Source: Cordylochernes scorpioides (taxonomy: Eukaryota > Arthropoda > Arachnida > Pseudoscorpiones > Chernetidae). From it: a DNA stretch of 64,000 nt. The stretch spans positions 58,568,899-58,632,898 of the forward strand of contig CP092863.1 in the NCBI GenBank assembly GCA_030710605.1, read 5' to 3'. Shown piece after piece: positions 1,866-57,564 of the stretch. The translations under genes and the position numbers were made by a program. The notes below the pieces were generated by a model. It searched no databases, had not been told where the DNA came from, and saw nothing but the letters and a program-made list of their open reading frames with translations. Within the stretch, counting starts at the first letter, position 1. Each line of letters starts with the position of its first letter.

Positions 1866-2319
1866 ATTTTGTGTGCCTCAAAATTTGAAAAAGTTCAGTT
1901 GAAAAAATTATGTGAATATGTTGAACACTTATTCAATACGTACACTTATGGACACATATTAAGGAATCAATTATAAGTTTTGTTATGTTGTCTACATATC
2001 TTTAAATGTCTTCATCTATCGTTTTAAAGGTAGAAGTTTGGCCATGTAAACTTCCTGAAATTGGTTCTAGTAATTTGCAAATTGGAATCATAGAGGTTTT
2101 TTGCGCTATGAAGGGGTTTATCTGAGTGAAAGTTTGCCTAACGAAAATTATCGGAAATAATTTTCCGGAACATAGAATATTATGATAATAATGATAATAA
2201 TATTCATTACATTATATATCTATATAATATATAAAATATATTTTTCGAGCAAACATATCCACTCTCTCTACTGAATATATTTCTAAAAAGATATATATAT
2301 ATATATAAATATCTAGAGA
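1866..2319. other. AT-rich spacer with TA microsatellite
   Basis: No coding signal. A short phrase (gtttatctgagtgaaagt, then gcctaacgaaaat, near 2116-2145) recurs near 3045-3070 and marks an RTE-like relic. A (TA)n tract lies at 2291-2307. Confidence 0.4.
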
Positions 2320-2357
2320 TATACTACATAATCTTAGCCAAAAAGCCGAGAAAAGAT
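2320..2357 (-). pseudogene. U2 snRNA 5' fragment (retropseudogene)
   Basis: On the minus strand, reading from 2357, the sequence contains TTCTCGGCTTTTTGGCTAAG followed by ATTATGTAGTAT. This matches the first ~40 nt of metazoan U2 snRNA, including the branch-point-recognition GTAGTA, with a few substitutions and one deletion. The rest of U2 (Sm site, stems III and IV) is absent and the sequence runs into an AT tract, so it is a truncated pseudogene. It sits directly beside an RTE-like relic starting near 2370. Confidence 0.7.
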
Positions 2358-9229: not shown

Positions 9230-9295
9230 ATTCGCTCAAAAACCATTCATTCTGGTTAGCAGCTTCGTAAATAAAGATATTTCCACAACAACAAT
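9230..9295 (+). repeat. Tail fragment of the 28.35-kb retroposon family
   Basis: GCTCAAAAACCATTCATT, then CTGGTTAGCAGC and AATAAAGATATTT match the 3' end of the 240-bp insertion at 28351-28590. It is a truncated copy only. Confidence 0.6.
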
Positions 9296-12759: not shown

Positions 12760-14028
12760 CTATACCGCTTGGTTATCGCACCACACCGGAGTTGTCTCAA
12801 CCATATTATGTGGTATATCCAAAAGGTTCAGGAACTCCCTGATCCATGTCACTTCCCTGACTGACGATGATAGGGAAATGTATTCCGCCTCCATTGTGCT
12901 GAGGGCGGTGACAGTTTGCTTTGAACTTCGCCATAGGATTGGAGCGCCTGCAAACATCACTACGTAACCCGATGTACTCTTTCTGTCTTCCAGGTTGGTT
13001 CCCCAATCTGCATCCGAATAGACACACAGTTGTTCCCCAGTCCGTCTATAGGTGATGCCTAGATGCTCTGAAGATTTTAAGTATCTTAAAATTCGTATCG
13101 CAGCAACCCAGTGTTTTCTAGAGTACTTTGAACAATAGCGAGCCAATTGACTTACTGCATAGGCAATGTCTGGCCTTGTCCGCTGTGAAATGTAGAGCAG
13201 TCCACCAATTAGTTCACGGTAGGGAAGGTCTTGGCAGTTTTCTTCATCTTCTTCCTCAAGAAGTTCTGGTCTGGTTTCCATCGGCGTTGAGACTTCTCTT
13301 CCTTCCTGAAGATTGAACCTTTCCAGTAGACTTTTTATATATGCTCTTTGTGTTAGAGTTACGCATCCACCCTTTGATCGAGTGAAGTTGACACCAAGCA
13401 GGTAGGATACTGGTCCGATGTACTTTGTTTCGAAGTGACCTCTCAGCAGTTCAATGCACTTTTCTCTCACTTCTTGATTCTCCGTCAGAGTAAGAATATC
13501 ATCCACGTATAATGATAGTATTATCATTCCTTCGTTCAGCTTGAGCTTGTAGACACAAGGGTCAACTGGATTCCTCAAAAATCCATTTTTCTTCAACCAC
13601 TAATCAAGGCACTTGTTACAACATCTGCCGCTTTGCTTCAGTCCGTACAGAGACCTTTTGAGTTGGCAGTAAAGATGTTCCTCACCAGGTTTAACAAAGC
13701 CTTCTGGTTGTTCCATGTAGATAACTCGGTCAAGCTTGCCGTAGAGATAAGCACTTTTCACGTCATATTGGTCTATGAACCAGTTATTTTCAACACCTAT
13801 TGCTGTGAGCAGTCTTGTCGTTTCAAAACTAGAAACAGGTGAGTAAATCTCATCATAATCGATTCTCTTTTGTTGAGTGAAGCCCTTTGCGACAAGTCGG
13901 GCCTTGTATCTAACTACTTGACCCTCGGCGTTGGTCTTCTTGTGTAGTACCCACTTACAAGCAATTGGGGCAGAGTCTTTTGGTAGTTCTGTTAGTTCCC
14001 AAACATTGTGCTTTCTCAAGGATTCCAA
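12760..14028 (-). pseudogene. Copia reverse transcriptase and RNase H
   Basis: Two same-frame segments (13600-14028 and 12760-13596) are separated by a single stop at 13600-13602. The N-terminal segment has CKWVLHKKTNAEGQVVRYKA, LVAKGFTQ and the YDVKSAYLYGKL motif with the first catalytic aspartate. The second segment has SLYVDDILTL (YVDD) and the Copia RNase H signature DADWG...RKSTSGYV, followed by SSKQTVTALSTMEAEY. It stops at CDNQAV-TAG. Catalytic residues are present, so decay is by stops and frameshifts rather than by loss of motifs. A further in-frame stop separates it from the integrase segment at 14029. Confidence 0.9.
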
Positions 14029-15042
14029 TTATTTTTCGATTGCTTCAAGCCAATGCTCAGCTTCAGTGCCTTGGATAGCTTCTTTATACGAAGTAGGATC
14101 TCCCTTATTTACTTCAGTACTGAGGAGTTCAATTGAGTTCTGAGCATTTCTCTGGTTCCTTAGGATCATTGGATGAGATCGAGTAGGAGAAGGCTTCACA
14201 GTATCTTCATTATGGCTGTCCTCTTCTGTAGGTGTCACGTCTTCTTGATCTAATAAAGACACTGGATTCTCTTCAATCTCCCGTTGAGTCCCATAGCTGT
14301 AGTGTTCAACTGATGGAAGCACCTCCCGGTTGCTGTCGTTCCTCAATACATCACTCTCTTTGAAGACACAGTCCCGAGATTCCACCATTTTCTTCATCTC
14401 AGGAATCCACACTCTGTAGCCACGTCCTCTGAGTGCATATCCTACAAGGTTACCTTTGACAGCTCTCCTTTCGAGTTTGGATTTACGGACTTGTCTTGGA
14501 ATATGGACAAATACTTGACAGCCAATAGCTCTTATGTGTTTAAGACTAGGCTTGTTCCCTGTCCACAGTTCATATGGCGTGCTTTCACCATTGTTATTGT
14601 TGAGAACTCTGTTTCTGACATAGGCTGCGGTGTAAGTCAGCTCCGCCCAGGAAGCCTTTGGCAGACGACTTCCAGATATAGTGCTCCTGACAAGATCTAG
14701 GAGTTTCCTATTCATTCTTTCTGCCACACCATTCTGTTGGGGTGTATACGTCATAGTGCGTTCATGAACTATTCCAACGCTCTTGCAGAAAGTGTCCCAT
14801 TCCTTGGAACAAAATTCCAAGCCATTATCCGTACGTATTCGTTTTAGTTTCCGGCTGGTTTGTTTTTCAGATTCTTGAATCCACTCTTTGACTTTTCTCA
14901 GGGTTCCGCCTTTGTTTTTAAGGAAAAATACACTTGTATATCTCGTAGATTCATCGATGATGGTTAAGACGTACTTGGCTCCTCCCCAGCTCAATACGTC
15001 GAGCGGACCCATCAAGTCCGCATGCACCAATTCCAACGGCAT
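14029..15042 (-). pseudogene. Copia integrase
   Basis: The frame starts near ELVHADLMGPLDVLSWGG, which holds the first catalytic aspartate. It continues with RTDNGLEF (second aspartate) and YTPQQNGVAERMNRKLLD, which holds the catalytic glutamate, so the D,D-35-E triad is intact. The C-terminal part has the Copia 'GYALRGRGYRVW' region and an acidic linker leading to RT. Upstream, the HHCC zinc-finger part (around 15043-15210) is in another frame with a stop between, so this is a broken pol gene. Confidence 0.9.
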
Positions 15043-15216
15043 GATTTATTTTTCCTCCTTGTGTGAGTGTTGAAGGAATGGCAGACGGTAAGACTTGACG
15101 ATCAAGCAGTCTTCGCACTTTTCTGGCTTTGCCGGTCTGCAATCAAGTCCTCTTACGCTTTGGTTCTTGGCCATCTTTGCTATCGTATATGCATTTACAT
15201 GCATCAGCCTTTTGTG

Positions 15217-15702
15217 TCAAAGTTCCAGTGTAAGCTCTTCCTTGCATTCAGATGCAAGAGAAACATGATCATTCTGATCTATCGGAGAGGATGGAGTAGT
15301 CTGGACGTAGTAAAGTCTACCCAACTTCTTTCCCTCTATCAAGAGTTTACCTTTCATGTCCATAATGTGGCAACCACTCCTGTTGAAGACAACCTTTCTA
15401 CCGTTTTCTATCATTTGGCGTACAGACAGAACACTGTGACGCATATCTGGAACATACAAGGTGTTCTGGGCAACCATATTGCTGGCATCTCCTTTGTGTC
15501 CAACAATATTGGCACTGACAGTACCGATACCACATGCTTCTATAGAAGAACCATTCGCAACAGTGATGGAACTCATATTGCTTGTGCACTCTTTCAGACA
15601 TGTGAAGTAATCTCTCTTGGGAGTCATATGGTGCGTCGCTCCAGAATCTATGATCCAGGTCTCGGCGGTAGCTCCAAACAAAGTGTTGCACATTGCCGAC
15701 AT
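15217..15702 (-). pseudogene. Copia aspartic protease
   Basis: ETWIIDSGATHHMTP is the Copia-type protease active site (DSGAT). It is followed by the usual 'LYVPDMRHSVLSVRQM' stretch and the 'GRLYYV' motif before the integrase zinc finger. It lies in the same frame as gag and is separated from it only by a TAA stop at 15718-15720. Copia normally has one continuous gag-pol frame, so this stop is either decay or a read-through site; decay is more likely given the other lesions. Confidence 0.88.
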
Positions 15703-15717
15703 ATTTACGCTTTTGTT

Positions 15718-16530
15718 TTAGTCAAACCTCTTTGGTCTTTGTTCATTCTTTCCTTTCTTCCTGCATTCCCTTGCATAATGGCCTTTACCTCCACATTTGA
15801 AACAAACAACCTTTGCTTTAAATTGTTTTCCTGTTTCAATGGGCTTCGAAGAGGCATTAGCGACCATGGCACCCACATCTTTTGGTAGATTTGACGAACG
15901 CCTTTCTGCTTCTGCCAACAGCCGTCTTTTAACTGTGGCGGTCGTGAAGTCTGAACCAGGCAAGTTACATATGGTTGAGACAACGGTGTCCCAATCCTCT
16001 GGTAATCCACCCAAAAGAACCATAGCCAAATCGCCATCATCAATTTTGTCGCCAATTTGGGCCAGTTCGTTTACAATGTAGTTTATCTTCCCCATATACC
16101 CTTCCATATTGCTGTGCTGAGTCAACCTTTCGCCATATAACTGCCTTCTTAGTTGTACGGCTCGATATCTACTATCCTTTGGTGCGTATAGTTTTTCCAG
16201 TTCTTCCCAGACCTCTTTCGGAGTATTCAAATGTTGAACATGCAATTGTTGTTCATCATTAATCCCGAGGCAAATTTTTGCAAACGCCTTACCCTCCCGC
16301 GACAAAAAAAAAAGTTTTGTTGCAACAAGGTCACTAGGGTCAGGCTTAGCCTCTCCTGGATTGATCAAACTCCACAAATCGTTTTCGATTAGAACGAGTT
16401 TCATCTGGAAGCTCCAGCTGGAGTAATTAGCACCATTTAATTTTGTAATCGTCGTGTTTGCCATTTTACAAAATATTTGGTAAGTAGAAAAAGGATGGTC
16501 CAAGTAATCAAAGGAAATTTGGTTACTCAC
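15718..16530 (-). CDS. Copia gag
   Basis: The likely start is the internal methionine of MANTTITKLNGANYSSWSFQ, the common Copia gag start with the 'L.G.NY..W' motif; the frame runs in upstream without it. The UBN2-type gag core follows (residues ~70-170 with 'VWEELEKLYAPKDSRYR'). It ends with the CCHC zinc knuckle CFKCGGKGHYARECRKK and a basic tail. The length, about 250 aa, is normal for the family. This is the only Copia segment seen without an internal stop. Confidence 0.88.
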   Translation of the reverse strand: MSNQISFDYLDHPFSTYQIFCKMANTTITKLNGANYSSWSFQMKLVLIENDLWSLINPGEAKPDPSDLVATKLFFLSREGKAFAKICLGINDEQQLHVQHLNTPKEVWEELEKLYAPKDSRYRAVQLRRQLYGERLTQHSNMEGYMGKINYIVNELAQIGDKIDDGDLAMVLLGGLPEDWDTVVSTICNLPGSDFTTATVKRRLLAEAERRSSNLPKDVGAMVANASSKPIETGKQFKAKVVCFKCGGKGHYARECRKKGKNEQRPKRFD

Positions 16531-16619
16531 GTTTTAGGCTTCGCGCTTCTTCAGTCTGACGTTTTAAGTCTTGTGCTTCTTCAGTTTCACCTTTTAGGCC
16601 TTGCGCTTCTTCAGTCTCA
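16529..16619 (-). repeat. Three 30-bp tandem repeats in the Copia leader
   Basis: Three adjacent 30-bp copies, each like ACGTTTTAGGCTTCGCG followed by CTTCTTCAGTCTG on the plus strand, lie between the 5' LTR and the gag start. They differ at a few positions each. A leader repeat of this sort could be an RNA structural or packaging signal, which is inference. Confidence 0.75.
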
Positions 16620-18329: not shown

Positions 18330-19046
18330 AAAAAAAATAGTAATCGCTAACACAAAATAATAAAACCTTTCAATTAATATTTTATTTTTTTTAATTAATA
18401 TTTTTTAACTTACCAGACACAAAATAACTACACAAATTATTGAACGTAACTCAATTTTTTTTTTTTCTAGTACTCCGAAAGAATATTTTCTCTTTAAACT
18501 TTAAGGCACACAATACTTATGGCGATGTACATACGTTATGTATGTAGGATTGTTGCGTGATGTGTTGGTGTGGCTTGTGGAAAGGCCGCTGATAAAATTA
18601 TAATTAAAATTAATTTATTTAAAGCCCGAAATATAAAAATAGAAAAGAAGCAACGGTTGAAGTAACGGCCGCCGGAGTTAGCCTAGATGTTTACCGCGTC
18701 AGTCGCCAGAGTCTCTGATGACGTCCCGGGCGCATGCGTAGTCAGGTTGACGCCCGCGGATGCCGAGGCCGTCCTAGTTCGGCTCGCTGAAGCAAAGTGT
18801 AGTCGCCACATGTATTTAGGTATAATATTATCAAAACTTACGACTTATGTATGGCGACCAGTGGTTCGTTATTAATAAATATATTATGTATAATTACAAT
18901 TTTTAAAAATTAGACTACAAATTTTTATTAATTTTTTTTTTTAATTTATAAAAAAAATATATATTAAAATATATTGTCTGGTGGGCCGCAAATTTATTCG
19001 TTGTGGGCCGCATGAGGCCCGCGGGCCGCGAGTTTGACATGCTTGG
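18330..19046 (-). other. hAT 5' non-coding end
   Basis: A GC-rich island at 18660-18800 contains TGACGTCC and other CpG-rich words. It is followed by AT-rich sequence and the GGGCCGC-rich terminal inverted repeat (18980-19046). It probably carries the hAT promoter; that is inference. Confidence 0.5.
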
Positions 19047-22830: not shown

Positions 22831-24190
22831 CAGGTTGATCCAAAAGTCTTGCACAACTTTAAAAATTAATAACTCCGCGAATATTTGTGTTAGAGCAATG
22901 CGGTAAAAACCATTGTGTTCAGGATGAAATGGGATATCTTAAGGCAAATAATGAAAAATTCGAAATTAATATCAATTACAAATTTATTCGCTATATGGCG
23001 CTCTACCAGAATCAGAGATTCAGCGGCCAAATTATTTGATAAATTGAAAATATAACTGATAGATACATATTTTTCCTTTTTGAATACCAGGAAAGAACCC
23101 TAATATTATCAAATGATAAATTATTAAAACACCATTCGCCAAAAGTAAAAGAATTAGATGACGATTTTTAAATGAAATCCGAGATATGTGAAATAGGTAA
23201 ATGCAAATTAAAACACGTAGCAAAAAAATATATATACCTATATATTTTAGATTCGGTTTGTTGGAATCCTCTCCGCTATTTAAATTTCGAAGATAAAAAA
23301 ATTATAATTTTTTAAATTTAATTCTCTTTCAGTATCAATTATTAAAATTTCAAAACTATTTTAGACGCGTAAGATTCTTTTTGAAATTAAATAATTTCGA
23401 ATGCCCTTACTGCAATGGGAAAAATAATGGGAGGGCCTGGCTCATCAGTGGTGAAACCTCCCAGCCATTTCACCAGTTTGATCTATCATACCGTTGTTAT
23501 ATTGCATTTTTCGATCTTCCTTTTATAGCGATACTGTTACTAGACTTTCGGAAAGGTATTATTATATTTATTTTAAATAATTTGAAAAATATTTACCTAT
23601 CTCTGATAATTTATTTTACTCTGGAATGCCGCATTATAAGATAAAGCACTCTTGGTGGAATATTTTATTGCAATTCAGAATCTGCCATTGATGCTTAACG
23701 AGCGTTTCGTACCTTTAAAGGTATTCGAAGTGGTAAAGGACCCATGAATTGCTACTCTCTAAGGCGAATGATAAAAAAAATTGAGAAGACTAGATATTTA
23801 GAAGTAATCCTCGAAGTGGAAGACCATCGACATGCAAGTCAGCGGCTGCTACAGTTTCGCAGAATGTTGAAGCTATTGAGACGTTATCCACGTATGGATA
23901 AGTAAGTGCTCGGCAAGTTTCTCGACAAACGGGGATTTCGTATAAAACAGTTTGGAGAGCACTAAGAATTTTCCTCAGAAAATACCCGTACAAAATTCAA
24001 AGATTCTACATTTTCAAGATTTTGAGAAGCGTCAAGAATTCGCTGCGTGGGTTTTCCTGTAAATTGATATCGATTAAAACTGGCTGTCAAAGGCTCTGCG
24101 GACAGATGAAGCTCACCTTTCTCTAAACGGAGAAGTTAACACTCAAAAGGATAATAAAGGCTGTCCTCATATCTTGACTCTTTTTTTCGC
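22831..24190 (+). pseudogene. Mariner-like transposase relic
   Basis: The left end CAGGTTGATCCAAAAGTCTT after TATA resembles a mariner/Tc1-type terminal repeat. At 23810-24180 the plus strand still reads the helix-turn-helix (SRQTGISYKTVWRAL) and WTDEAHF-like sequence (CGGACAGATGAAGCTCACCTT), which carries the first aspartate of the DDE/D triad. It is followed by a GEVNTQ-like segment, with several stops and frameshifts. The rest of the catalytic core is absent. Bases 23040-23640 do not match the family and may be a later insertion. Confidence 0.65.
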
Positions 24191-25117: not shown

Positions 25118-25811
25118 ATGGATGTAGAAACTTTAATAAAAAATTTAAAAAGGATTAAAAAAAACTATAAAAGGCATAGAGGAAAATATCGAATCCATTG
25201 TGTCTATGGTAGATATTAATGCAACGAAATGCAAACTAGATTATGCAAATAATGATTTGATGAAAATGAGGGATGTTTTCTTGCAGCACCTTGAGGATGA
25301 TGATTTGAATGACAAAGTGGAAATTTGTATAGATAAGTGTATAAGATTAAAGTTTGAATTAGATTTAAAACATAATGGGCAAGAACCATCTGAAAAAAAA
25401 AAGAAGTTAATTTACATGTTAAAATGCCTAAACTTGAGTTGTCAACTTTCAATGGCCTCCATTTAAAGATCTATTTTTTTCTGCAATTGGTTCTAACTCA
25501 CACCTCATACCTGATATTGAAAAGTTACAATATTTGAAAGGCCAACTGAGAGGCGAAGCCTTAAGACTGGTCAACGCATTTCCAATTACAGCCGATAATT
25601 ATGTTGAGGCTTGGCAAACTTTATTAACAAGATATGATGACCCAAAGGATCTAATTTTCACCCAAATAGATAATGCATTAAGATTACCAAAATTAGCCGA
25701 TGACAACCATAATTCAATGTTTAAACTTCTAGATAGCTGCAACGAAATAATAAGAAGAGTGAAGGTATTGGGTTACCAAATCGATAGTTTATCTGAGGTA
25801 TTTTTCGTCTA
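25118..25811 (+). pseudogene. BEL/Pao gag fragment (DUF1759-like)
   Basis: A frame starting ATGGATGTAGAAACT (25118) and two further frames (25200-25466, 25534-25812) make up a frameshifted gag. The diagnostic part is KLELSTFNG, then after a shift GQLRGEALRLVNAFPITADN and YVEAWQTLLTRYDDP. This is the DUF1759 pattern of BEL/Pao elements ('LP+++L..F.G...' and 'L.GeA...i..fplt..nY..Aw..L..rYg'). It ends abruptly where a minus-strand Gypsy fragment begins. Protease, RT and LTRs are not in the window. Confidence 0.8.
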
Positions 25812-27265
25812 GATCATACAAGATATGCTTGATACTACTTTTGCATTTGTTTCTGGGTGATGGGCACTGGTGAGTAGATGTTTAACATTATTTCTTTCTG
25901 AAAAAAGTTTTAATTTATTACTAAGAAAAGCTGGATTTCTGTCAGTTATTAATATTTCAGGTTTATTAATTTGGAATAAATTTCTAAGACAAGTTATATA
26001 AGAATCAGTTGATACAGAATTTGTTGGAAAAGCCCAAAGGAATCTATTATGGTGATCTACTATCATATGGATACTGTGTCTTGTTGTCCCATAATTATGT
26101 AACCCGCCCAATGTATCTAAAGAAAAAATGTGATTGGTGTGTGTAGCTATTGGCATCTGTTGTAGTGGTCCATAAACAATTCTGTTATCCCTAGACTTGT
26201 TAAACTGGAAACTTTCACAATGTTTGGTGTAATTAGCAATATCCCTAGTCATATCTGGCCAATAATAGTGTGGAGAAATTATTTTAGTCATTTTAGTTGT
26301 TCCAATATGTCCATGCTTTGTATGTACTTTGTTTAATAATTTGTGTCTTAATGTCTGTGATACATAAGCTCTTTTAAAACCCTTTCTAGCAATCATATAG
26401 AGGCCATTTTGTATGTTAATTTTAGCACTACTAATTTGTTCATTTGATTGGTGTTCTTTTAACTCATTATATGTTAGGTAAAATGAGACGGGTGCTCTTG
26501 ACAGCATGTCTGCTTCTATATTATTTGTTCCTTTAATATGTTTAATGTCAAAGCTATATTGAGATGGAATTAAGGACCATCTAAATAACCTACCTTGTGG
26601 GTTTTTTACATTTTTGATCCATTTTAAAGGTAAGTGATCTGTGTGCAAGGTAAAATGTATGTTGTGTAGATATGTGTGAAACCTTTGTACTGAATTAATG
26701 ATAACTAATGTTTCAATTTCTGAGGCAGTATAATTCTGTTCATATGGGTGAAGTTTTCTTGAAAATTAAACTATCGGATGTAAAATGGATTTTTCATCTG
26801 GTTGTTTAAGAACTCCTGCTACTCCTAGACCTGACGCGTCTGTGAATAAATGACATGGTTTTGATGGGTCATAAATATATAGTTCAGGTTGTGATATGAG
26901 CGAATTTTTAAGTGTTTGGAAGGCTTGTTCATGTTTCGCACTCCATAGCCAAGGAGCATTTTTTAACAAAAGTTCATTCAAAGGTGCCCTAATTTGCGCA
27001 AAATGGGGAATAAATTTATTATAAATATTAATTGTACCTAAAAATCTTTGTAAGGTCTTAATATTATATGGTCTATTTAATTTCAAAATTGTTTCAATAT
27101 TTGTGTTATTTGGTGTATATTTTCCTGAGTTAATAGTGTATCCTAAGAATTGTATTTCTTTTTGTGAAAATTTGCATTTATTGAGATTGAGTTTTATATC
27201 CTCTTGTTCGAATATACTTAATATGTCATCTAAATGATGTTGGTATTTATGTTGTATCTGAATCT
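25809..27265 (-). pseudogene. Gypsy pol fragment: RT end, RNase H, integrase
   Basis: Minus strand. At 27090-27265 is the RT palm end (LNLNKCKFSQKEIQFLGYTI). 26766-27086 is the RT connection and RNase H start (RFLGTINIYNKFIPHFAQIR, then LFTDASGLGVAGVL). 25809-26648 is the RNase H end (TDHLPLKW...ADMLSR) and integrase. The zinc finger has both histidines and one cysteine, but the second cysteine is Phe (KHCESFQFN). The integrase core has SLDTLGG and ITDRNPAF, and stops just before the catalytic glutamate. The frame is broken near 26650-26765 and 27087. Both ends are truncated and no LTRs are seen. Confidence 0.88.
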
Positions 27266-27269
27266 TAGC

Positions 27270-27870
27270 TATTACCCTCTCTCCATTCCAACCAAAATTT
27301 ACTTTCTATTTAGTCGAAGAAGCATGGTTTAGCAGTAATGAAGAAAGGGCTGAAACTGCTGCTCAGGTCTTCATCTGAAGAGGCCCGCCTGAGTACCATC
27401 CTCTTTCCATCTGGTCTGACCTTTATGGATTTCAACTGGTCTAACCTTTAAGGTTATCATCCTTCCTAATTTAATATACTATCTTATATCGTGTCCTCCA
27501 CATTTACACTAGATTGTCTTTAAAATAAGCGTATTAAAAAAAATTCCAAAAAAAAAAAATAATCACAAAAATCTATCTTCTTTTATCAAGAGATAAAATA
27601 GAGCAAAAAAATACTTCTATCTCTCCAATTAGCTTTATTTTATATTCGGAAAATTATTATCATGGTTCTATCTTTGCTCTTCTCTATAAAACTTTCTCTT
27701 CGCTTATTCCTTTTTTCACCCAGCCTTTGACGCGTAACTGCCGATGCTTTGCTGGTGATACTTTTAATATAATCTAACTAATTATTTATTACAAAAAAAA
27801 ATAAATAAAACAAACCTCTCACACTTTTAAATTAAATAAAAAAATATATTAATCTTAAAATTCTCATAAC
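27270..27870. other. Spacer beside the Gypsy fragment
   Basis: 27300-27460 contains a short hairpin (AGCAGT...ACTGCT) and GAAGAGG-type words that recall Penelope-like tails but lack a hammerhead core. The remainder is AT-rich. No gene. Confidence 0.35.
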
Positions 27871-27885
27871 TATACTATATATATA

Positions 27886-28250
27886 TATATATGAAAATAT
27901 TGTACAAATGTAATATTGTACTGGAATAAGGTGCATAAATTAAGAAAAAGGCATATCTTTATCGTTCAACTGAAAGTTGATAATGACCAATTCTTTTGGT
28001 CGTTGAGGTACAGCTTGCACCACGCTGATGAGGGCCAACAGCCCGAAACGCGTCCGTGTTTAGCTTTCTTGATTAATCAAGAATTGGTATTTGGCCAATT
28101 CTGGAATAATTAAAAATCAACGAGAATAGTTGATATTTATTCCGATAGATGGCGCAAGCCATCATCAACTCTCAGTTGCACGATAAAGATATGCCTTTTT
28201 CTTAATTTATGCACCATATCCCAGTACAATATTACATTTGTACTATTTTT
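27886..28250 (+). mobile_element. Hammerhead-bearing element, unit E1, with ~85-bp inverted tails
   Basis: An inverted copy of the tail (27893-27978) faces the direct tail (28161-28245); AAATGTAATATTGTACTGG, GGTGCATAAATTAAGAAAAA and GGCATATCTTTATCG recur in reverse complement with few mismatches. Between them lie the body and an intact-looking hammerhead (28012-28065). The left boundary is a (TA)n tract. A second unit follows head-to-tail at 28248, so E1 and E2 form a tandem dimer with an inverted repeat at the left, as in Penelope-like pseudo-LTRs. No protein is encoded. Confidence 0.8.
28012..28065 (+). ncRNA. Hammerhead ribozyme, unit E1 (consensus core, GUC site)
   Basis: Order: outer stem I AGCT (28012-28015), inner stem I CACG (28021-28024), core CTGATGA (28025-28031), stem II GGGC, loop CAACA, GCCC (28032-28044), core GAAA (28045-28048), one-pair stem III CGCG (28049-28052), site GTC (28052-28054), inner stem I CGTG (28055-28058), outer stem I AGCT (28062-28065). 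Every invariant base is present, and stem I has four inner and four outer pairs around an internal loop, which is usual for the loop contacts of type I hammerheads. Cleavage is predicted after C28054. The very short stem III suggests activity mainly as a dimer, known for Penelope and retrozyme hammerheads. Confidence 0.88.
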
Positions 28251-28350
28251 TCATATTGTGTAGCGTTTTCACGCAATTCTGGCCTTAACTACCCGTTTCA
28301 TGGTTTTTCAGGATGCCTTAATGACCAATTCTTTTGGTCGTTGAGGTACA

Positions 28351-28590
28351 CCTCAACTGGCCTCCATCCAGGTTTCTCACCCATCAAGGCGCTGTTTCCT
28401 TGACCTCTCCAGCTTCCTCCCCCCTGCGATGACACCTCCACTGCCAGATCCTAGGATCCATTGCGATGATCCCTGGCCACCCATCCCCAGGCCCCCCAAC
28501 TATGCTTTGTATATATTCCGCTTTATGCGTCCATCGGGGCTCAAAAATCATTCATTTTGGTTAGCAGCCCCGTAAAATAAAGATATTTTC
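28351..28590 (+). mobile_element. 240-bp retroposon with 13-bp target duplication
   Basis: Flanked by TCGTTGAGGTACA at 28338-28350 and 28591-28603. The insert is C-rich in its first 150 bp and ends TTCATTTTGGTTAGCAGCCC, then CGTAAAATAAAGATATTTTC. The same tail occurs at 9236-9295. It has no promoter-like tRNA box that I can see, so it is probably a LINE 3' end or a processed transcript. Confidence 0.75.
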
Positions 28591-28602
28591 TCGTTGAGGT
28601 AC

Positions 28603-28656
28603 AGCTTGCACCACGCTGATAAGGGCCAACAGCCCGAAACGCGTTCGTGTTTAGCT
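28603..28656 (+). ncRNA. Hammerhead ribozyme, unit E2 (core mutated)
   Basis: The same layout as E1: outer AGCT, inner CACG, stem II GGGC-CAACA-GCCC, GAAA, CGTG, AGCT. The core reads CTGATAA instead of CTGATGA (A at 28621), and the cleavage triplet is GTT. The invariant G of the core is lost, so it should not cleave. Confidence 0.7.
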
Positions 28657-28796
28657 TTTCTTGATTAATCAAGAATGGGTATTTGGCCAATTCTGGAATA
28701 ATTAAAAATCAACGAGAATAGTTGATATTTATTCCGATAGATGGCGCAAGCCATCATCAACTTTCAGTTGCACGATAAAGATATGCCTTTTTCTTA

Positions 28797-28799
<3 letters not shown>

Positions 28800-28829
<30 letters not shown>

Positions 28830-30660
28830 ATATGTGTGAATAAAAGTGTATATATATTCTGATAAAATAAATTGATTTCCTATAACCCCCTATTGATTAA
28901 AAGGCGAGTATATACAAAAAGTAAATATATTTTCAATATATAAAATTTGCATATACTATATTAAAAAAGTAAATAGCTTTCTATGTACATATATATATAT
29001 ATAAATGTTTTAAAATAATAGGAATCCTACATTAAGTAAATATATGATAGTGTTTTTGGGATGAACATAGTGATACATGCTTCTTCCTTTGAAATTGTCT
29101 ATGATTAACTATATAAAAACTTGTTTGGAGTTTCCCCCTCAAAGCTTGAGGGTCATTTTTCATTATTCTTGGTAATCAATTTCTCCGCTCTTAGAAATCA
29201 ATCCTAGAAATCCCAAGAGACTACTCCAATCGATGCTTTTCACTGTGACCAGGTGGACTCACTGGGCCTTTTCTTTCACTCTGCTAACTTTTTTGCATCT
29301 ATTTATTATTCAGTTTTTTTCCAATAGACAAATACATTACATGTTATTTAATATCTATAAATAATATATATCTTTTATAGTCTCCGTAATGTAATGATGA
29401 TTAATTGGACATTTAATTTTAATACTTTGAGTGACGGATTAATTTGTGGGACAAAATGTTTTATATCCAATGAAATTAGGAGCTAAATATTCTCGTACAA
29501 ATTTATTTTACTACTTTTAATGAAAACAGTACTACGAAAGTATAAATTTATTTTAATGATTAAAATAGAAATTTCTTCATAATAGAATACGTAATACATG
29601 AAATCGTTTTCAACTTCTAAACGATTGGAAATTCTCTTTTTACATTAATGTGTAAGGTCTATGAAGTAGTCCTATAAATTAAATTATCCAGCATGCACGC
29701 ATATATATATATTATATTATCTAAAATGCAAATATTTTATTTTTTTTTTAAACATATATTTCATTTCCATTGACTGTTCTATATATTTTGACCATAGATT
29801 CAGAACATACCACTTTAATTATTGTTGTAAATATATATGTATAGTTAACCCTGCCTATTTTTTTAAAATTACGATTATAGAATTCATTCTATAAATTTTA
29901 TATTGCTGTGATAAATAATTTTATGTGTAAATTTACTTCATATAATTCAAAATAAAAACTACTGCACCTCTCTTTTTCATCAACAAAACAAAAAATAATC
30001 ATGACACATATATATATTCTCTCTATTTCAAAATATTTAACAGGAGGAATGCAAAAGTTGAAGTCATAATTATTTATAAGCTACAATGACCTATTATCTA
30101 TTAGTATCTCTCAACAATTGGAGAACAAAAGGTAAGTGCATAAAAGCACAATAAGTTAGCGATCTGTTTGTCTAACTATATTCTATATAATATTGAAATG
30201 TAGTAATAGATGACTAAGCAGATCACAATGATAAGACAAAATATATTTTATTTATTACGTCAGCAAAACTAAGCGATTATAATTAAAATTATATAGATAT
30301 AAGGCTAACAGAGTTCTCAGTTGTAAAGTTTGAGGCTATCTCCTCCAAAGGTATTTAACTAAAAATAGGCATCTATGTACCAAAATTTTCGTTATTTTCT
30401 GCTTCACATGACCGTTTTATTTTTATGTTCCAAATAATAATAGATTTATTTATTTTTAATTTGTTTGATTTTGCAATCGTAGATTTTTTTGCCTTCAAAT
30501 GTTGTTTATCTTATCTTATTTGTTATTTTTCATCATCGAATTGTTTATTTTTAAAACACGTTCTTTTTTTATTATTACTTTTTACTAATTTCTAATATAT
30601 ATTTCATATTTATGATTCAATTGTTACATGCATCACATACATTTTATTATAATTATAATT
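28800..30660. other. AT-rich spacer with TA microsatellites
   Basis: (TA)n tracts occur at 28797-28830 and 28990-29003. No conserved frame and no recognised transposon end. Confidence 0.4.
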
Positions 30661-31383: not shown

Positions 31384-31773
31384 GTGCTCCTGGTCATTTT
31401 ATTTTTAAAATCAACCCTGACCCACTTATATTTATTTTTTTCTATTGTATTTTCATGTACTAAGCGTAATTACGCGAAATTGGCCTTAAATACCCATTTC
31501 TTGGTTTCTCAAGAAGTCTCTGGGACCAAAAATATTTTTGGTCGCAGTGGTACAGCCTACTCCACGCTGAAGAGCGGCAACAGCGCGAGACACGTTCGTG
31601 GATGGCTTTTCTTTATTTATCAAGAAATTGGGTTGGCCAAATATCGGGGAACAGGCTATATCAATGTTTAGTTGATTTCTGTTCTACCAGATGGCGCTCT
31701 ACCTTCTGAAAAGCACATGTGTTCCTGGTCAGGATATGCCTTTTTTATTTTTAATATCAACACCTGACCCACT

Positions 31774-31775
<2 letters not shown>
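31384..31775 (+). mobile_element. Hammerhead-bearing element, unit B
   Basis: Contains, in order, a partial direct tail (CTCCTGGTCA...ATTTTTAAAATCAACCCTGA), a TTTTCATG...TAATTACGCGAAATTGGCC segment, TACCCATTTCTTGGTTTCTC, the hammerhead (31561-31602) and GATGGCGCTCTACC. It ends with a full tail including CAGGATATGCC and ATATCAACACCTGACC, and abuts a (TA)n tract. Same family as copy A, about 90% similar in the body by eye. No protein. Confidence 0.75.
31561..31602 (+). ncRNA. Hammerhead ribozyme, unit B (core mutated)
   Basis: CACG, CTGAAGA, GCGG, loop CAACA, GCGC, GAGA, CACGTT and CGTG. Two lesions are seen: GAGA for the invariant GAAA, and GCGG:GCGC with a stem II mismatch. It should be inactive. 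Confidence 0.7.

Positions 31776-31779
<4 letters not shown>

Positions 31780-31811
<32 letters not shown>
31780..31811. repeat. TA microsatellite
   Basis: (TA)n lies between hammerhead units B and C. All hammerhead units here abut such tracts or short TA-rich sequence. Confidence 0.9.
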
Positions 31812-31814
<3 letters not shown>

Positions 31815-32125
31815 AAAAAGCAATAGAAAAAAAATAGGTCAGGTATTGATATTAATTTTATTTTTATTTTTTCATCATGTGTTAAGCGTATTTAAGCAAA
31901 TTTGTCCTTAAATACCCATTTCTTGGTTCTCAGTGTGGTAGAGCCTACTCCAGTAGAGCGAGTTCGTGGATAGCTTTTCTTGATTTACCAAGAAATAGGG
32001 TTGGCCAAATATTAGGGAACGGGCTAAATCAATGTTTAGTTGATTTCTGTTCCTTTAGATAGCGCTCTTCCATCTTTAAAGCACATGTGCTCCTAGTCAG
32101 GATATGCCTTTCTTAAAAATATCAA
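31812..32125 (+). mobile_element. Hammerhead-bearing element, unit C, ribozyme deleted
   Basis: It starts GTGAAAAAGCAATAGAAAA, with an inverted partial tail (GGTCAGGTATTGATATTAA), then the body (TACCCATTTCTTGG, ...GAGCGAGTTCGTGGATAGC, ...TGATTTCTGTTCC). It ends with CAGGATATGCC. The CTGANGA and GAAA parts are lost by deletion near 31945-31960; only the 3' strand, TTCGTGGAT, remains. Confidence 0.65.
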
Positions 32126-33726: not shown

Positions 33727-34165
33727 TGGTGACATAAGGCTGGACAAAAGAGGCACAAGGGCGTCTCTCGAAGTTAAAGAAGAGACGCACCTTTCAATAT
33801 TGAGCAGAAGGCCTCAGAGACTCAATACTTGGGATAGGTAAAATTTCGTGTGTATTTCAAAATTTATTTTGAACTTGTAGTATGAGAATCGCATATATTG
33901 TTGTGTAACCACGGCGCGACCCTGAACGCCGGACACGTGGGCGCGACTAACACACGCCCGCTACTTAACTAGCAAGGCTCACGATTTTGATTTATTATTA
34001 TTATTATTATTTTATTTTAATTAATTTTAAACTCTCTCTGTGAGTCATCGTACAACAGAGTTCGGCAAGAAATAGAAACTTTCTTGCTTGCTCTCTGTAT
34101 TTATTTTGTAGAGTTTTTATTTTTTTGGGACTTAAGTTCCATTTTTTTTTTTGGATGAACGCAAA

Positions 34166-34672
34166 ATGAAGACGGCTCGACCCGCACCGACCGACCCTAC
34201 AGAGGACCGACCCGAGTGCCAAGAAGCTACAGAAAAGATGCATCCCCGGACCAGCACCAACCCTGGCACCAATAAAAGGTTACATCCCTTAGTACGGCCC
34301 TGTGACTTCCAGGCTCCCACACAACACGTGGTGGAGATGAGCGGCGACCCAACCTCTCCGAGCGAAAACGTCTACAACCACATAATGGAGCTGCAGAAAT
34401 TCAATCCCGAGGAGGGAGACCTGGAAGATTTCGTGGAAGACGTAAAAATATGGCTAAGGAGATCGAACGTACCAAAAAAAGAATGGTCGAAGACACTGAT
34501 GAGATACCTACCACAACGAGCCAAAGAATTCATCAAGTGCCGCTTCGAACCTACTGAAGACTTGGAAGTGATAACGGAAGCTCTGGAGACCCTTTTTCCA
34601 AAAAACGACAGCCAGGCGAGAAAAAGAGGCAAAGAACTAAGAAGAAAAAGAAAGCACATGTGCTCATGGTGA
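34166..34672 (+). CDS. Retrotransposon gag-like protein, 3' truncated
   Basis: The first ATG of the frame is at 34166 (MKTARPAPTDPTEDRP...); the frame is open a few codons upstream. The N-terminal third is proline- and threonine-rich. The rest looks like a retrotransposon gag helical domain: LEDFVEDVKIWLRRSNVPKK, then WSKTLMRYLPQRAKEFIKC. The pattern 'W...l..yL...A...i' is typical of Gypsy-type gag. No zinc knuckle remains, because from 34650 the frame runs into a hammerhead-element tail (AAAGCACATGTGCTCATGGT...) and stops. LTR and leader lie upstream (33478-34165). A remote family match; the class is inference. Confidence 0.55.
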   Translation: MKTARPAPTDPTEDRPECQEATEKMHPRTSTNPGTNKRLHPLVRPCDFQAPTQHVVEMSGDPTSPSENVYNHIMELQKFNPEEGDLEDFVEDVKIWLRRSNVPKKEWSKTLMRYLPQRAKEFIKCRFEPTEDLEVITEALETLFPKNDSQARKRGKELRRKRKHMCSW

Positions 34673-34728
34673 GGATATGTCTTTTTATTTTTTATTTTTT
34701 TCTATTGTTTTTTCACATATATATGTAA
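34650..34728 (+). mobile_element. Tail of a hammerhead-bearing element
   Basis: AAAGCACATGTGCTCATGGT, GAGGATATGTC, then TTTTTATTTTTTATTTTTTT and CTATTGTTTTTTCACATATATATG, as at the ends of copies A and B. Only the tail is present, 5' truncated at gag. Confidence 0.7.
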
Positions 34729-36600: not shown

Positions 36601-36639
36601 TCCGTTGTCATCACACGGCTGCCCTCATGACATTGTATA

Positions 36640-37490
36640 TAACGGTAGGTGTTTGCATAGAATTGTAAGTGTTTGTATAGGACTGTGAATGTTTGTATAG
36701 GATTATGGGTGTTTGTATAGGACTGTGTGCGTTTGCATAGGACTATGAGTTTTTTTTATTGGACTGTGGGTGCTTGTCTAGGACAGGGGAAGTTCGTTTA
36801 GGACAGTGTGTGTTTGTATAGGACTATGAGTGTTTGAATAGGACTGTAGATGTTTGTATAGAACGGTGGGTGTTTGTATAATACTATGGATGTTTGTATA
36901 TGACTGTGGGTGTTTAGGACTATGGATGTATGTATAGGACTGTGGATGTTTGAATTGGACTGTTAGTGTTTGTATAGGACTGTGGGTGTTTGTTTCAAAC
37001 TGTGAGTCTTTGTATAGAACGGTTGAGTTCGTATAGGACTGTGGATGTTTGTATAAGGCGGAGAGTATTTGTATGGTACTGTGAGTGTTCGCATAGGACG
37101 GTGTGTGTTTGTATAGGACTTTGAGTGTTTTATATGACTGTGGGTGTTTGTATAGGCCTGTGAGTGTTTATATAAGTTTATGGGTGTTTGTATAAGACTG
37201 TGGTTGCTTGTATAAGACTATGAGTGTTTTTATAAGACTGTGGGTTTTCGTATAGGACAATAGTTGAGTGTGGAGTTAATATCGGACGGTGGGTGTTTGT
37301 ATAGGACTGTGATTGTTTGTATTAGACTGTGGGTATTTGTATAACACTGTGGGTATTTGTATAATAACACTGTGGGTGTTTGTATAGGACTGTGGGTAAG
37401 TGTGGGGTTTATATTGGACCGTGGTTGAGTGTGGGTTCGCTATAAGACTGCGAGTGATAGTGGGGTTTATATAGGACAGTGGAGTCCCTG
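36640..37490 (-). repeat. 20-bp minisatellite, left block (inverted orientation)
   Basis: About 40 units like TGTGGGTGTTTGTATAGGAC, which is the reverse complement of the right-hand array's unit. Units are more divergent than in the right block, with several length variants. Confidence 0.9.
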
Positions 37491-38060: not shown

Positions 38061-38124
38061 TCGGCCTGTTGTATTAAATTCAGGAAAGCGCTGAGAGGGT
38101 TCACCACTGACCAAAAAGTTAACC

Positions 38125-40190
38125 AAACACTCACAGTCCTATACAAACGCCCACAGTCCTATATAAACACCCACAGTCCTATACAGAAATTCCCAGTCCT
38201 ATGCAAACACCCACAGTCCTATACAAAAACTCACAATCCTATACAAAAACCCACAGCCCTATACAGACACACACAGTCCTACACAAAAACTCACAGTCCT
38301 ATACAAAACCTCTCAGTCCTATACAAAAACTCACAGTCCTATACAAACACTCACAGTGCTATACAAAAACCCACAGTCCTATACAAACACACACAGTCCT
38401 ATACAAACACACACAGTCCTATACAAAAACTCACAGTCCTATACAAAAACTCTCAGTCCTATACAAAAACTCACAGTCCTATACAAACACTCACAGTGCT
38501 ATACAAAAACCCACTGCCCTATACAAACACCCACATTCATATACAAACACTCACAGTCCTATACAAAAACACACAGTCCTATACAAACACCCACAATCCT
38601 ATTCAAACACCCACAGTCCTTATAAAAAAAACACTCATAGTCCTAAAAAGAAACTCACAGTCTTATACAAAAACCCACAGTCCTATACAAACACCCACAG
38701 TTCTATACAAAAACTCTCAGTCCTATACAAAAACTCTCAGTCCTATACAAAAACTCACAGTCCTATACAAAAACTCTCAGTCCTATACAAAAACTCACAG
38801 TGCTATACAAAAACTCTCAGTCCTATACAAAAACTCACAGTCCTATACAAAAACTCTCAGTCCTATACAATAACTCACAGTCCTATACAAACACTCTCAG
38901 TCCTATACAAAAACTCACAGTCCTATACAAACACTCTCAGTCCTATACAAAAACTCACAGTCCTATACAAACACTCTCAGTCCTATACAAAAACTCACAG
39001 TCCTATACAAAAACTCTCAGTCCTATACAAAAACTCACAGTCCTATACAAACACTCTCAGTCCTATACAAAAACTCACAGTCCTATACAAAAACTCTCAG
39101 TCCTATACAAAAACTCACAGTCCTATACAAAAACTCTCAGTCCTATACAAAAACTCACAGTCCTATACAAACACTCTCAGTCCTATACAAAAACTCACAG
39201 TCCTATACAAAAACTCTCAGTCCTATACAAAAACTCACAGTGCTATGCAAAAACTCTCAGTCCTATACAAAAACTCACAGTCCTATACAAAAACTCTCAG
39301 TCCTATACAAAAACTCACAGTGCTATACGAAAACTCTCAGTTCTATACAAACACTCACAGTCCTATACAGAAACCCACAGTCCTATACAAAAACTCACAG
39401 TCCTATACAAACACTCACAGTCCTATACAAAACCCAATGTCCCATACAAACACCCACAGTCCTATACAAACACTCACAGTGCTATACAAACACTCACAGT
39501 CCTATACAAAAACCCACTGTCCCATACAAACACTCACAGTCCTATACAAACACTCTCAGTCCTATACAAAAACTCACAGTCCTATACAAACACTCACAAT
39601 CCTATACAAAAACCCACTGTCCCATACAAACACCCACAGTCCTATACAAAAACTCTCAGTCCTATACAAACACACACAGTCCTATACAAACACACACCGT
39701 CCTATACAAAAACTCACAGTCATATACAAAAACTCTCAGTCCTATACAAAAACCCACAGCCCTATACAAACACACACAGTCCTATACAAAAACTCACAGT
39801 CCTATACAAACACTCTCAGTCCTATACAAAACCTCTCAGTCCTATACAAAAACTCACAGTCCTATACAAACACACACAGTCCTATACAAACACACACAGT
39901 CCTATACAAAAACTCACAGTCCTATACAAAAACTCTCAGTCCTATACAAATACCCACAATCCTATTCAAACACCCACAGTCCTATACAAAAACTCACAGT
40001 GTTATACAAAAACTCACAGTCCTATACAAACACTCACAGTCCTATACAAAAACTCACAGTGTTATACAAACACTCACAGTCCTATACAAACACTCACAGT
40101 CCTATACAAAAACCCACAGTCCTATACAAACACCCACAGTCCTTATAAAAAAACACTCATAGTCCTATATAAAGTCCTATACAAACAACC
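38125..40190 (+). repeat. 20-bp minisatellite, right block (~100 units)
   Basis: The unit is CAGTCCTATACAAAAACTCA and near variants. 20 is not a multiple of 3 and the unit has no stop in any plus frame, so all three plus frames stay open for very long (up to 653 codons). Each gives the same 20-residue cycle (HSPIQKLTVLYKNSQSYTKT). There is no start, promoter or splice evidence, so I do not call a gene. The reverse strand has TAG in every unit. Confidence 0.95.
38700..39345 (+). repeat. 40-bp higher-order repeat in the minisatellite
   Basis: Units ending AACTCACAG and AACTCTCAG alternate almost without exception here, giving a 40-bp dimer. Outside this segment the alternation is lost and AACCCACAG and ACACACAG variants appear. 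Confidence 0.85.
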
Positions 40191-50840: not shown

Positions 50841-52660
50841 TTAAAGATTTTGATTTGTGTTTAAAATTTTGCATGCATTTCTCTATTTCTGTTCTTTTCT
50901 TGCAAAGCTAATGGATTGTTTAGGTTGCTTATTTTTGACTCGCCAATTTGTTTAGTGATAAAGTGGTATAGCGTTCTTTTTCAGAGCATCACCCTACAAA
51001 AAAATTGCCTGACCTTTCCTAATATTCAGATAGATTGATTATATCAATGTACTAGACTACAAACATTCCCTCGAGTAAAAACAATTATTAAAAAAAAATC
51101 TTATCTAAATATATATCACTCGGGTAGATATGCACACGGGTCAATCCCGGGGCGAAGCCCGGGTCGGCGTCTAGTATTCAATAAAATGCATACTAATTTC
51201 ATAGTTGCACTTGATGCTTTATTCATGGTTATGGTGTTTAAAGAAAAACTATGAAAATAAACTTCTTCCAATTGTATAAATATTACAAAAATATTTATTT
51301 CGAAAACAATTATTCCAGTTGAATTACAAGAAGGCAAATACTTAAACCAATTTACAGTGTAGGCAACGTTAATAAACAGTATGATCTACCACAATGTGGT
51401 AGTTTAGGAGGATGCTTGGGCTATGTATTCTGTTCATTAATGTTGCCTGAACAGATCTCAGATCTAGAGGCTCAAAAATATTTATTTATCTTTAATTTTA
51501 TTTTCAATATTAAGATGAAAATATCAGGATTCTGGAGATACCTTTCATTTAAAACATTTCAATTCATAAAATCCCTTCTATACGAAAAATCACACTACAA
51601 TAAATCAATAGGACAAGATTTAAAATATAATCAAGTACACATAAGATATACTTATATATTTATATAATTATTTGAATATCAATTTAAAGCGGGCCTCCAC
51701 TGCATGTGCTTATTGGATTTTCCACTCAAAGGGGTTTTTTAAAATTATATTTCTTATATATCTTATATAAGATATATTAATTATTTTCTGTCTCGATTAT
51801 CGATATTTCGTTTATGTTCGATTTTTTTTATATTAATAATTTCTGCCAGTTTCACCTATATATTTGGTTTTGCAATCTTTGCATATATAGAGTATATGAC
51901 ATTCTTAATATTAGTAGGATAATTAATACATTGACCTTTGTAAGGAGTTTTTTAACAATGAATATATATCGCGCGAATTACTGAAGAAAGGTTTTATTCC
52001 GAGCTATTGATACGGGTATACTGGTGAATAGGGATCACTGCAAATAGATTTGGAGGGGCTATATAAATGTCTTAAAATGAATGATATAAGATATTAACAA
52101 GCCTTTTTAGATTTTTAAAATTTCTTTGTTTCTTCGGATTTAAAGGTTTGAAGTGACCAATGGCTCTGAAAACGTTTAATTGAGGTTTTTACTGTATTTA
52201 TTGTATGCTTGAGAGGACAGTAGGAGGGTAATCGTATATAGTTGGGGTTGTAGAATGTTTTATAATATAATTTTGTTTGGAATAGCTGTTCTGTGAGAAC
52301 GATTTTATATCTTGAAATTGCAGGCTATTGTTTGTATTTTTTCCTAAGTGAAATTCAGGTCGGCATGGTAACTATGGAGGTTTGTCAGAATGCTCTTAAT
52401 TTGATTTTCGGGACAGATACAAAATATATCAACAATTTATCGACGCCATAAAACTATATTTGATGGGAAATTCTAGAGTTTTGTGAAAACAAATGTTTTA
52501 AAAGAAACTTATACCCGAAAGCCTGATATTTTTACTTTAAAATTGATACATATACAATTTTATTGAACTATTATTTTTAACGCTACTTTTCAAATACAGT
52601 TAATTAAAAGCAGTGTTGGGAAAAGTGTAATCATGATTACCTTATCTATATTTATAACTA
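50841..52660. other. AT-rich stretch with a minus-strand RTE-like head
   Basis: On the minus strand at 51110-51180, ACTAGACGCCGACCCGGGCT, then TCGCCCCGGG is the GC-hairpin head of the dispersed RTE-like family. Nothing else recognised. Confidence 0.4.
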
Positions 52661-52879
52661 GCGGATGCACCGGGCTCCACCCGGGTTTTATTCGAGTAAA
52701 GGTTATTCTAACGAATATTTGATAAAAATATTTTCCAAAAATCTTCTCCCTACTGATTCGATTTTTATGAATACATTTATACATATCGTTTCAGTAGAGA
52801 GTGGATATTTGTTGATTTTTTTTATTTTCATAAAGATATATTCAAAGAAAAACAGGGTAACGTGGTAAGATTCTTTTAA

Positions 52880-52925
52880 TAGAACACGACGAGCTTTCAG
52901 GCAGCAACTGCCCTTCTTCAGGTCT
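52880..52925 (-). ncRNA. Hammerhead-like motif in left Penelope tail
   Basis: Minus-strand mirror of the motif at 57380-57425: CTGAAGA, strong stem II (AGGGCAG, TTG, CTGCCT), GAAA, GCTCGTC. Stem I pairing is weak, so activity is uncertain. Confidence 0.5.
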
Positions 52926-53166
52926 AATACAAGTGTAGACAAAGAAGTGCCATATTTATAAGCGAAAATATTTACATATATACGCGCAAAGAATAAGGAA
53001 TTTTACATACTGGAGATTGGAAAGGGGAATTTGCATATTTACAAATAAAAATAAAACAAACTCTGTGTGAGAAACAGAGGCAAAAACGGAGATAAAAATT
53101 AAATCTGAAGGCAAAACACGGAGATAAAAATTGAACCGTAAATAACAATAAAAACCCAGAAACATA

Positions 53167-55134: not shown

Positions 55135-55170
55135 CAGCTTCCTCTGGTGCCGGAGTTCATTCCTCTGGTG
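55135..55170. other. 36-bp spacer at the centre of the palindrome
   Basis: The spacer contains TTCCTCTGGTG twice (55139-55149 and 55160-55170). With the arm edges it forms degenerate 21-24-bp direct repeats (CCAGAATTCCAGCTTCCTCT... and CCGGAGTTCATTCCTCT...). The EcoRI-like GAATTC occurs on both edges. It is unrelated to Penelope sequence as far as I can see. Confidence 0.85.
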
Positions 55171-57138: not shown

Positions 57139-57467
57139 TATGTTTCTGGGTTTTTATTGTTATTTACGGTTCAATTTTTATCTCCGTGTTTTGCCTTCAG
57201 ATTTAATTTTTATCTCCGTTTTTGCCTCTGTTTCTCACACAGAGTTTGTTTTATTTTTATTTGTAAATATGCAAATTCCCCTTTCCAATCTCCCGTATGT
57301 AAAATTCCTTATTCTTTGCGCGTATATATGTAAATATTTTCGCTTATAAATATGGCACTTCTTTGTCTACACTTGTATTAGACCTGAAGAAGGGCAGTTG
57401 CTGCCTGAAAGCTCGTCGTGTTCTATTAAAAGAATCTTACCACGTTACCCTGTTTTTCTTTGAATAT
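57139..57467 (+). repeat. Penelope 3' UTR and tail, right arm
   Basis: Non-coding 3' region with repeated TTTTTATCTCCGT segments (57175-57225), then the tail TAGACCTGAAGAAGGGC...GAAAGCTCGTCGTG, TATTAAAAGAATCTTACCACG and the end TTTCTTTGAATAT. The left arm carries the mirror copy at 52838-53166. Confidence 0.85.
57380..57425 (+). ncRNA. Hammerhead-like motif in right Penelope tail
   Basis: CTGAAGA (57384-57390), AGGGCAG-TTG-CTGCCT stem II with one bulged base, GAAA (57407-57410) and GCTCGTC. The core follows CUGANGA...GAAA and lies where Penelope-like elements are known to carry hammerheads. Stem I partners are poor (TAGAC against GTGTTCTA), and stem III cannot be drawn cleanly, so this is a candidate only. 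Confidence 0.5.
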
Positions 57468-57564
57468 TACAGCGTGGCGATATGATAAAGATATATATGA
57501 ATATACATTGACATTTGTAAATATAGAGAGTAATTATATTATGATGCATTAGCGCGCTATCTGT

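Follow-up and report, generated by a model that had tools for sequence, protein, structure and literature searches.

E1, at positions 28012-28065 (plus strand) of the 64-kb window, the window being the whole stretch of 64,000 nucleotides analysed here, is an intact hammerhead ribozyme motif, and the mobile element that contains it is a decayed copy belonging to a known kind. Most likely this element is a non-coding retroelement of the animal non-LTR retrozyme kind, with a type I hammerhead and a unit of 338 bp. It is ordinary in kind; the new detail is the occurrence of inverted left tails of varying length against TA or AT-rich DNA, and this insertion topology is the part of the finding worth following. 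With E1 the animal retrozymes gain a probable arachnid member, whose helix III has a form described for amphibians in the text drawn on from PMC7229834.

The E1 hammerhead motif

A reading of the sequence alone had placed the invariant bases, stems I and II and a CAACA loop at 28012-28065, and all of these are found there. The outer stem I is formed by AGCT (28012-28015) and AGCT (28062-28065), the inner stem I by CACG (28021-28024) and CGTG (28055-28058), and stem II by GGGC (28032-28035) and GCCC (28041-28044), which enclose the CAACA loop II; stem I also contains an internal loop, and this loop and loop II are the elements between which loop 1 - loop 2 tertiary contacts would form. The core letters are CTGATGA (28025-28031) and GAAA (28045-28048). 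Helix III is a single pair (A28048:T28053) capped by a palindromic CGCG (28049-28052), and the cleavage base is C28054, after which the RNA is predicted to be cut. E1 has the complete type I hammerhead core (CUGANGA ... GAAA ... UH, with stems I and II) and, judged by its sequence, is a real and intact hammerhead motif.

A hammerhead descriptor (4-bp stem I, CTGANGA, 4-bp stem II, GAAA, 2-30 nt, T[ACT], stem I') gave two matches in the 64-kb window, one at 28021-28058 and the other at 1703-1740. The 300 dinucleotide shuffles yielded no match, which rules out a chance motif as the source of E1. Relaxed to a 3-bp stem II, the descriptor found the same two sites, with one match in 300 shuffles. 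A looser, stem-free pattern gave an additional match at 23928-23978 on the minus strand, which the descriptor rejects as lacking the stems.

The best Rfam hammerhead family for E1 is Hammerhead_HH9 (RF02275), with 23.1 bits against a gathering score of 52 and an E-value of 0.29 over 64 kb or 0.005 over 1.1 kb (E-values computed for all 4227 families). E0, at 1694-1747, likewise matches HH9 over the 64-kb window (21.7 bits, E-value 0.81), and no hammerhead family other than HH9 is listed for either of these intact copies. The matches extend over the full length of the model, from which they differ in their scores and in that helix III of the model has three pairs. No hammerhead family matched in the window at the gathering threshold, which is the curators' cut-off and not a definition of a hammerhead ribozyme, and no hammerhead family matched E2 or E3 up to an E-value of 10. 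The word 'consensus', applied to E1 in the sequence-only reading, overstates the Rfam score. A covariance search of the window, in which a score at background level was to count against the ribozyme, came out borderline; the case for E1 therefore rests on its core, its family and the changes within that family.

Copies of the ribozyme in the window

Repeat and BLAST searches revealed four alignable ribozyme copies (E0, E1, E2 and E3), all on the plus strand and belonging to two subfamilies. Beyond these, BLAST identified E3b (31811-32115, plus strand), a further unit that has lost most of its hammerhead by deletion, and, from subfamily A, a solitary 3' tail (34651-34716, plus strand) that ends in TTTTTTCACATATATATG. 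An open frame at 34136-34672 runs into the solitary tail at 34651, and its end is element-derived. Over the ribozyme and about 100-140 nt downstream, E1 and E2 are 98% identical and E0, E3 and E3b share 81-88% identity, with 61-68% between the two subfamilies (67% for E1 versus E0, 110 of 164 aligned bases).

E0 (plus strand), recognised as a subfamily A hammerhead by Rfam, the descriptor and alignment, has the core CTGACGA and T as cleavage base; its stem II (GCGC:GCGC) is compensatory and its outer stem I has decayed. The 38-nt cores of E1 and E0 show four differences, namely at N7, on both sides of the second pair of stem II (G-C to C-G) and at C17 (to T). Position 7 is a variable site in hammerheads, and the change of C17 to T is permitted by the NUH rule. 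On the sequence evidence none of the four differences breaks the fold, all being tolerated or compensatory. E3 (31554-31607, plus strand, by alignment), also of subfamily A, has an outer stem I of AGCC:GGCT, compensatory against AGCT:AGCT, and carries GAGA in place of GAAA, so that it is predicted to be inactive. E2 (28603-28656, plus strand), the second hammerhead of the E1 locus, has by core alignment the core CTGATAA (G8 to A) and T as cleavage base, and is predicted to be inactive; C3 and G8 are named as core residues in the portion of PMC11167929 used here, and mutating either abolishes cleavage. The core is broken in two of the four aligned copies (E2 and E3), and the fifth copy, E3b, is without most of the motif.

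Of the 48 cells of the four-row alignment 93.8% pair, and double changes are seen in two pairs, compared with at most 54.2% paired and zero double changes in controls with the partners slid by 1-3 columns. This covariation, modest in that 46 of 500 column shuffles attain the score, supports stem II and the outer stem I; the inner stem I is invariant across the aligned copies and uninformative on covariation.

The E1 locus

The stretch from 27981 recurs at 28319, and this spacing defines the 338-bp first unit (27981-28318, plus strand; GC 38.8%) of a tandem dimer. The second unit starts at 28319 and runs to 28350 (plus strand), where it is interrupted by a 240-bp insertion (28351-28590, plus strand) delimited by BLAST and by a flanking duplication; the remainder (28591-28802, plus strand) aligns by BLAST with the first unit over 212 nt at 97% identity. 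The duplication is a 13-bp target duplication, TCGTTGAGGTACA, with its left copy at 28338-28350 (plus strand) and its right copy at 28591-28603. About 50 nt of the 3' end of the insertion match 9234-9282 at 90%. Its target duplication and AT-rich end mark it as an apparently later, SINE-like insertion. Simple patterns for Pol III promoter boxes found no match in 27870-28830, and the longest ATG frame in the same interval has 64 codons.

The dimer, the GC content and the short ATG frames bear out the view, already taken from the sequence alone, that the hammerhead lies in a non-coding mobile tandem unit of the retrozyme type. That the unit adjoins a TA microsatellite is also correct; the description needs to be amended in that the units recur every 338 bp, that the second of them is interrupted and that TA runs are found at both edges. 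Self-cleavage and circularisation, which had been envisaged for this unit, are doubtful at the E1 locus, where the partner at 28603-28656 carries A for G8 and the 240-bp insertion lies in between. With at most one intact core, the dimer is probably a fossil as to circle production, and it probably yields no unit circles now, because the partner ribozyme E2 is broken. To the left, open frames at 25809-27305 (minus strand) resemble, by eye, Gypsy-type pol fragments, the frame 26766-27305 ending about 580 bp from the E1 block.

Folding of E1

A dead relic, in which the core letters were kept by chance or by recent descent and the RNA neither folds nor cleaves, is a somewhat unlikely reading of the locus, and one compatible with a retrozyme origin. 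Nearest-neighbour folding speaks for it in that a rod is favoured over the hammerhead in the E1 monomer (-19.6 versus -12.2 kcal/mol). However, the Rfam HH9 consensus is misfolded by the same method with the same bias (-26.3 versus -20.8), and the rod preference of E1 is therefore not decisive. The insertion within the second unit and the two broken cores among the four aligned copies also accord with a relic, but the core changes between the intact copies, E1 and E0, are all of the tolerated or compensatory kind, which argues against it.

In the folding of the E1 dimer, the best fold reaches -44.2 versus -32.1 for the hammerhead dimer, and the folding stability of E1 is unremarkable (z -1.35; 22 of 200 shuffles equally stable). 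The 338-nt unit circle has a predicted energy of -103.0 kcal/mol, and its ribozyme region folds as a rod, unlike most metazoan retrozyme circles as presented in the part of PMC7229834 drawn upon. On the four-row alignment 87.5% of the 64 cells of the rod pair, with the same two double changes as for the hammerhead, because the two folds have those helices in common. The rod is not preferred as the selected fold, since two pairs of its GCAC:GUGU helix are disrupted, each of them in two of the four copies.

Relation to retrozymes and Penelope-like elements

Metazoan non-LTR retrozymes are characterised, in the sections of PMC7229834 available, by type I hammerheads, tandem units of 170-400 nt, low GC content, circular RNA and the absence of LTRs. 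Further marks of this kind of element are the lack of a PBS and a PPT, target duplications of more than 4 bp where such occur, and linear as well as circular RNAs of unit length. The E1 element agrees with them in the type I hammerhead, the unit size, the low GC, non-coding sequence and the tandem arrangement of units of ~170-400 nt with one hammerhead each (a 338-bp dimer, its second unit interrupted), and in the coexistence of a Penelope-like element, one being present in the window. It differs from those described there in its probable arachnid host, in the varying left inverted tail and in the TA-rich edges. A literature search on arthropod retrozymes and arachnid hammerhead ribozymes returned no arachnid retrozyme by title, and exact patterns searched in viral and prokaryote contig collections gave 0 matches, a result of little weight for an animal element.

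The single-pair helix III had been likened to that of Penelope-like and retrozyme hammerheads. The single pair is confirmed, and E1 as a whole is less like the minimal Penelope form, described in the portion of PMC7761336 consulted as being without helix III or loop contacts, and more like a canonical type I hammerhead. The palindromic CGCG helix III is a form that PMC7229834, in its relevant passages, gives for amphibians, with a firmer helix III for invertebrates; one-pair helix III and palindromic tetraloop are shared with the axolotl HHR_Amex1 and the newt satellite hammerhead covered by the same passages. The likeness is one of helix III form, and the 338-bp dimer sets E1 apart. The amphibian forms are stated there to need dimer action for higher cleavage (PMC7229834), and given this resemblance the activity of E1 may need dimers.

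It is improbable that E1 is a fragment of a Penelope-like pseudo-LTR and that there is no independent retrozyme. Such a fragment would be in keeping with the type I hammerheads that Penelope-like elements bear in tandem pseudo-LTRs, according to parts of PMC7761336 and PMC11167929, and with the presence of a Penelope-like element in the window. This element, encoding a reverse transcriptase (RVT_1) and a GIY-YIG domain, was located at 52838-57467 by repeats and by domain and protein searches, and forms a head-to-head inverted pair of 2299-bp arms with 7 differences between them; among the best 3 of 8000 candidates, its protein matches Cordylochernes scorpioides hypothetical proteins at 98-99%, which points to this pseudoscorpion as the probable host. 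Tblastn of this protein over the window found, however, 53170-57135 and a further, diverged fragment at 51772-52460 (minus strand), none of them near the ribozyme copies, plus one chance-level match (E-value 2.5) at 18740-18826. Nor did four stretches, taken around E1, the insertion, E0 and E3, match anything in the Penelope-like element by DNA BLAST, a comparison that covers this window and one Penelope family whose 5' region is truncated, so that a hammerhead there is not comparable. The internal loop in stem I and the lack of a long ORF also distinguish E1 from the minimal Penelope hammerheads. With these hammerheads and with Poseidon PAc of Anolis E1 shares, as far as the excerpts of PMC11167929 and PMC7761336 go, the very short helix III, AT-rich targets and alternative 3' ends.

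Ends of the elements

On the left, the E1 element abuts a TA run (27876-27892) with the outer end, TGAAAA, of an inverted tail of 97 nt (27889-27985, minus strand; repeats and BLAST) that is 93% complementary to 28160-28256; on the right the dimer is bordered by an AT array (28797-28833) detected by TRF. TA runs thus adjoin the dimer at either outer edge, and they hide any target duplications. At the start of the E0 block (1374-1852, plus strand, by BLAST) lies an inverted tail of 135 nt, which BLAST recovers in two pieces (1374-1508), and at the start of E3b one of about 45 nt (31811-31855, its extent determined by eye and BLAST giving it in pieces). A TA array (31774-31811, TRF) separates the E3 unit from the next. 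The three left ends (E1, E0 and E3b) have in common the outer end TGAAAA beside TA or AT-rich DNA, and their inner ends vary. Among the five right ends the solitary tail alone stops at the terminus seen on the left; those of E2 and E3 fall 47 and 23 nt short of it, in TA arrays, and those of E0 and E3b stop elsewhere.

Two AT/TA dinucleotide arrays were detected by TRF in the window, and each of them borders the retrozyme family. Three of the ten TA runs of at least 6 repeats in the window are within 15 nt of a block edge, as compared with 0 of 20000 random uniform placements that did as well, a test to be read as descriptive, the block edges having been set by hand after the data were inspected. 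Neither the left flank of E0 nor the right flank of the solitary tail belongs to these ten runs.

It is quite improbable that the family is a DNA element with terminal inverted repeats, a MITE or fold-back, which targets TA arrays, carries a hammerhead by chance and is moved by a transposase. Such a reading could draw on the 97-nt arms with their 93% complementarity, on the TGAAAA end common to the three left arms beside TA or AT-rich DNA and on the Mutator-like elements of a plant reported to target TA microsatellites (PMC4486113), but the arm length is not fixed (135, 97 and, by eye, about 45 nt), one in five right ends reaches the left-side terminus, which in this one window departs from the fixed identical inverted ends of such elements, and a 338-bp tandem dimer is unexpected for a MITE.

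Proposed mechanism and mobilising enzyme

For a retrozyme, the published model holds that tandem copies would be transcribed, that each hammerhead would cut its own RNA after the cleavage base, here C28054, that a host ligase would join the unit-length RNAs into circles and that a reverse transcriptase would copy the RNA back into DNA as tandems. For E1 we infer that the RNA was cleaved and formed circles, and that a Penelope-like enzyme mobilised the element with priming from both strands of the target. Retrozymes are said in the passages of PMC7229834 used here to be probably copied by LINE or Penelope-like enzymes, the mover being left there at 'strong candidate'. The Penelope-like element of the window is a possible source of the mobilising enzyme. 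For the Anolis Penelope-like protein PAc, the relevant part of PMC11167929 reports a preference for AT-rich DNA, cutting and extension of both target strands in vitro, a start of reverse transcription at two alternative sites, which explains the 'tail' of genomic copies, and a hammerhead dispensable for insertion in vitro.

That retrozymes integrate by Penelope-type two-ended priming at TA or AT-rich sites is a proposal that we make tentatively and with low confidence. Each target strand would prime reverse transcription near the AU-rich 3' tail of one circular or multimeric RNA, and in the product both 3' ends would face outward, while the left inverted tail would have an outer end that recurs and an inner breakpoint that varies; the same priming would give alternative 3' ends resembling the Penelope 'tail'. 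The Penelope-like pair in the window has both of its 3' ends outward, the same topology as the retrozyme inverted tail plus unit, and might represent the autonomous version of the same two-ended reaction, its head-to-head palindrome being possibly a single two-ended insertion. ATAAAGATATAT occurs at 52830-52841, with a 4-nt overlap with the left arm, and at 57485-57496, 17 nt past the right arm, and may be interpreted as a 12-bp target duplication to which 17 nt have been added on the right side. The topology common to the retrozyme left ends and the Penelope-like element suggests two-ended priming, an indication as to the enzyme that is drawn from a single window with five blocks. Shapes of this kind could also result from twin priming by a LINE enzyme or from rearrangements that followed the insertion.

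If two-ended priming were true, the inverted tails would be structural evidence for the enzyme that moves animal retrozymes. Recurring as it does at TA or AT-rich sites, the inverted tail is a signature that can be counted genome-wide.

The 10-mer ATAAAGATAT is over-represented in the window, with 9 occurrences against 0.64 expected (9271, 27953 on the minus strand, 28183, 28577, 28775, 52830, 57485, 7283 and 58567), and is found in the E1 and E2 tails, in SINE-like 3' ends and in the Penelope flanks. Two of the nine places are, by eye, without a known element, and for this reason the 10-mer is not made part of any mechanism.

Other features of the window

A U2 snRNA-like match lies at 2290-2357 (minus strand) with an Rfam score of 26.8 bits, below the gathering score of 46. 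The U2-like letters correspond to the U2 5' end near 2320-2357, the rest of the match containing a TA run (2291-2307), and a fragment inserted by retrotransposition could account for the match. At 38124-40173 a 20-bp tandem repeat is present in about 102 copies, with overlapping long open frames, and a relative in inverse orientation is found at 36633-37397. Open frames at 12760-16533 (minus strand) resemble, by eye, a Copia-type retrotransposon polyprotein in pieces.
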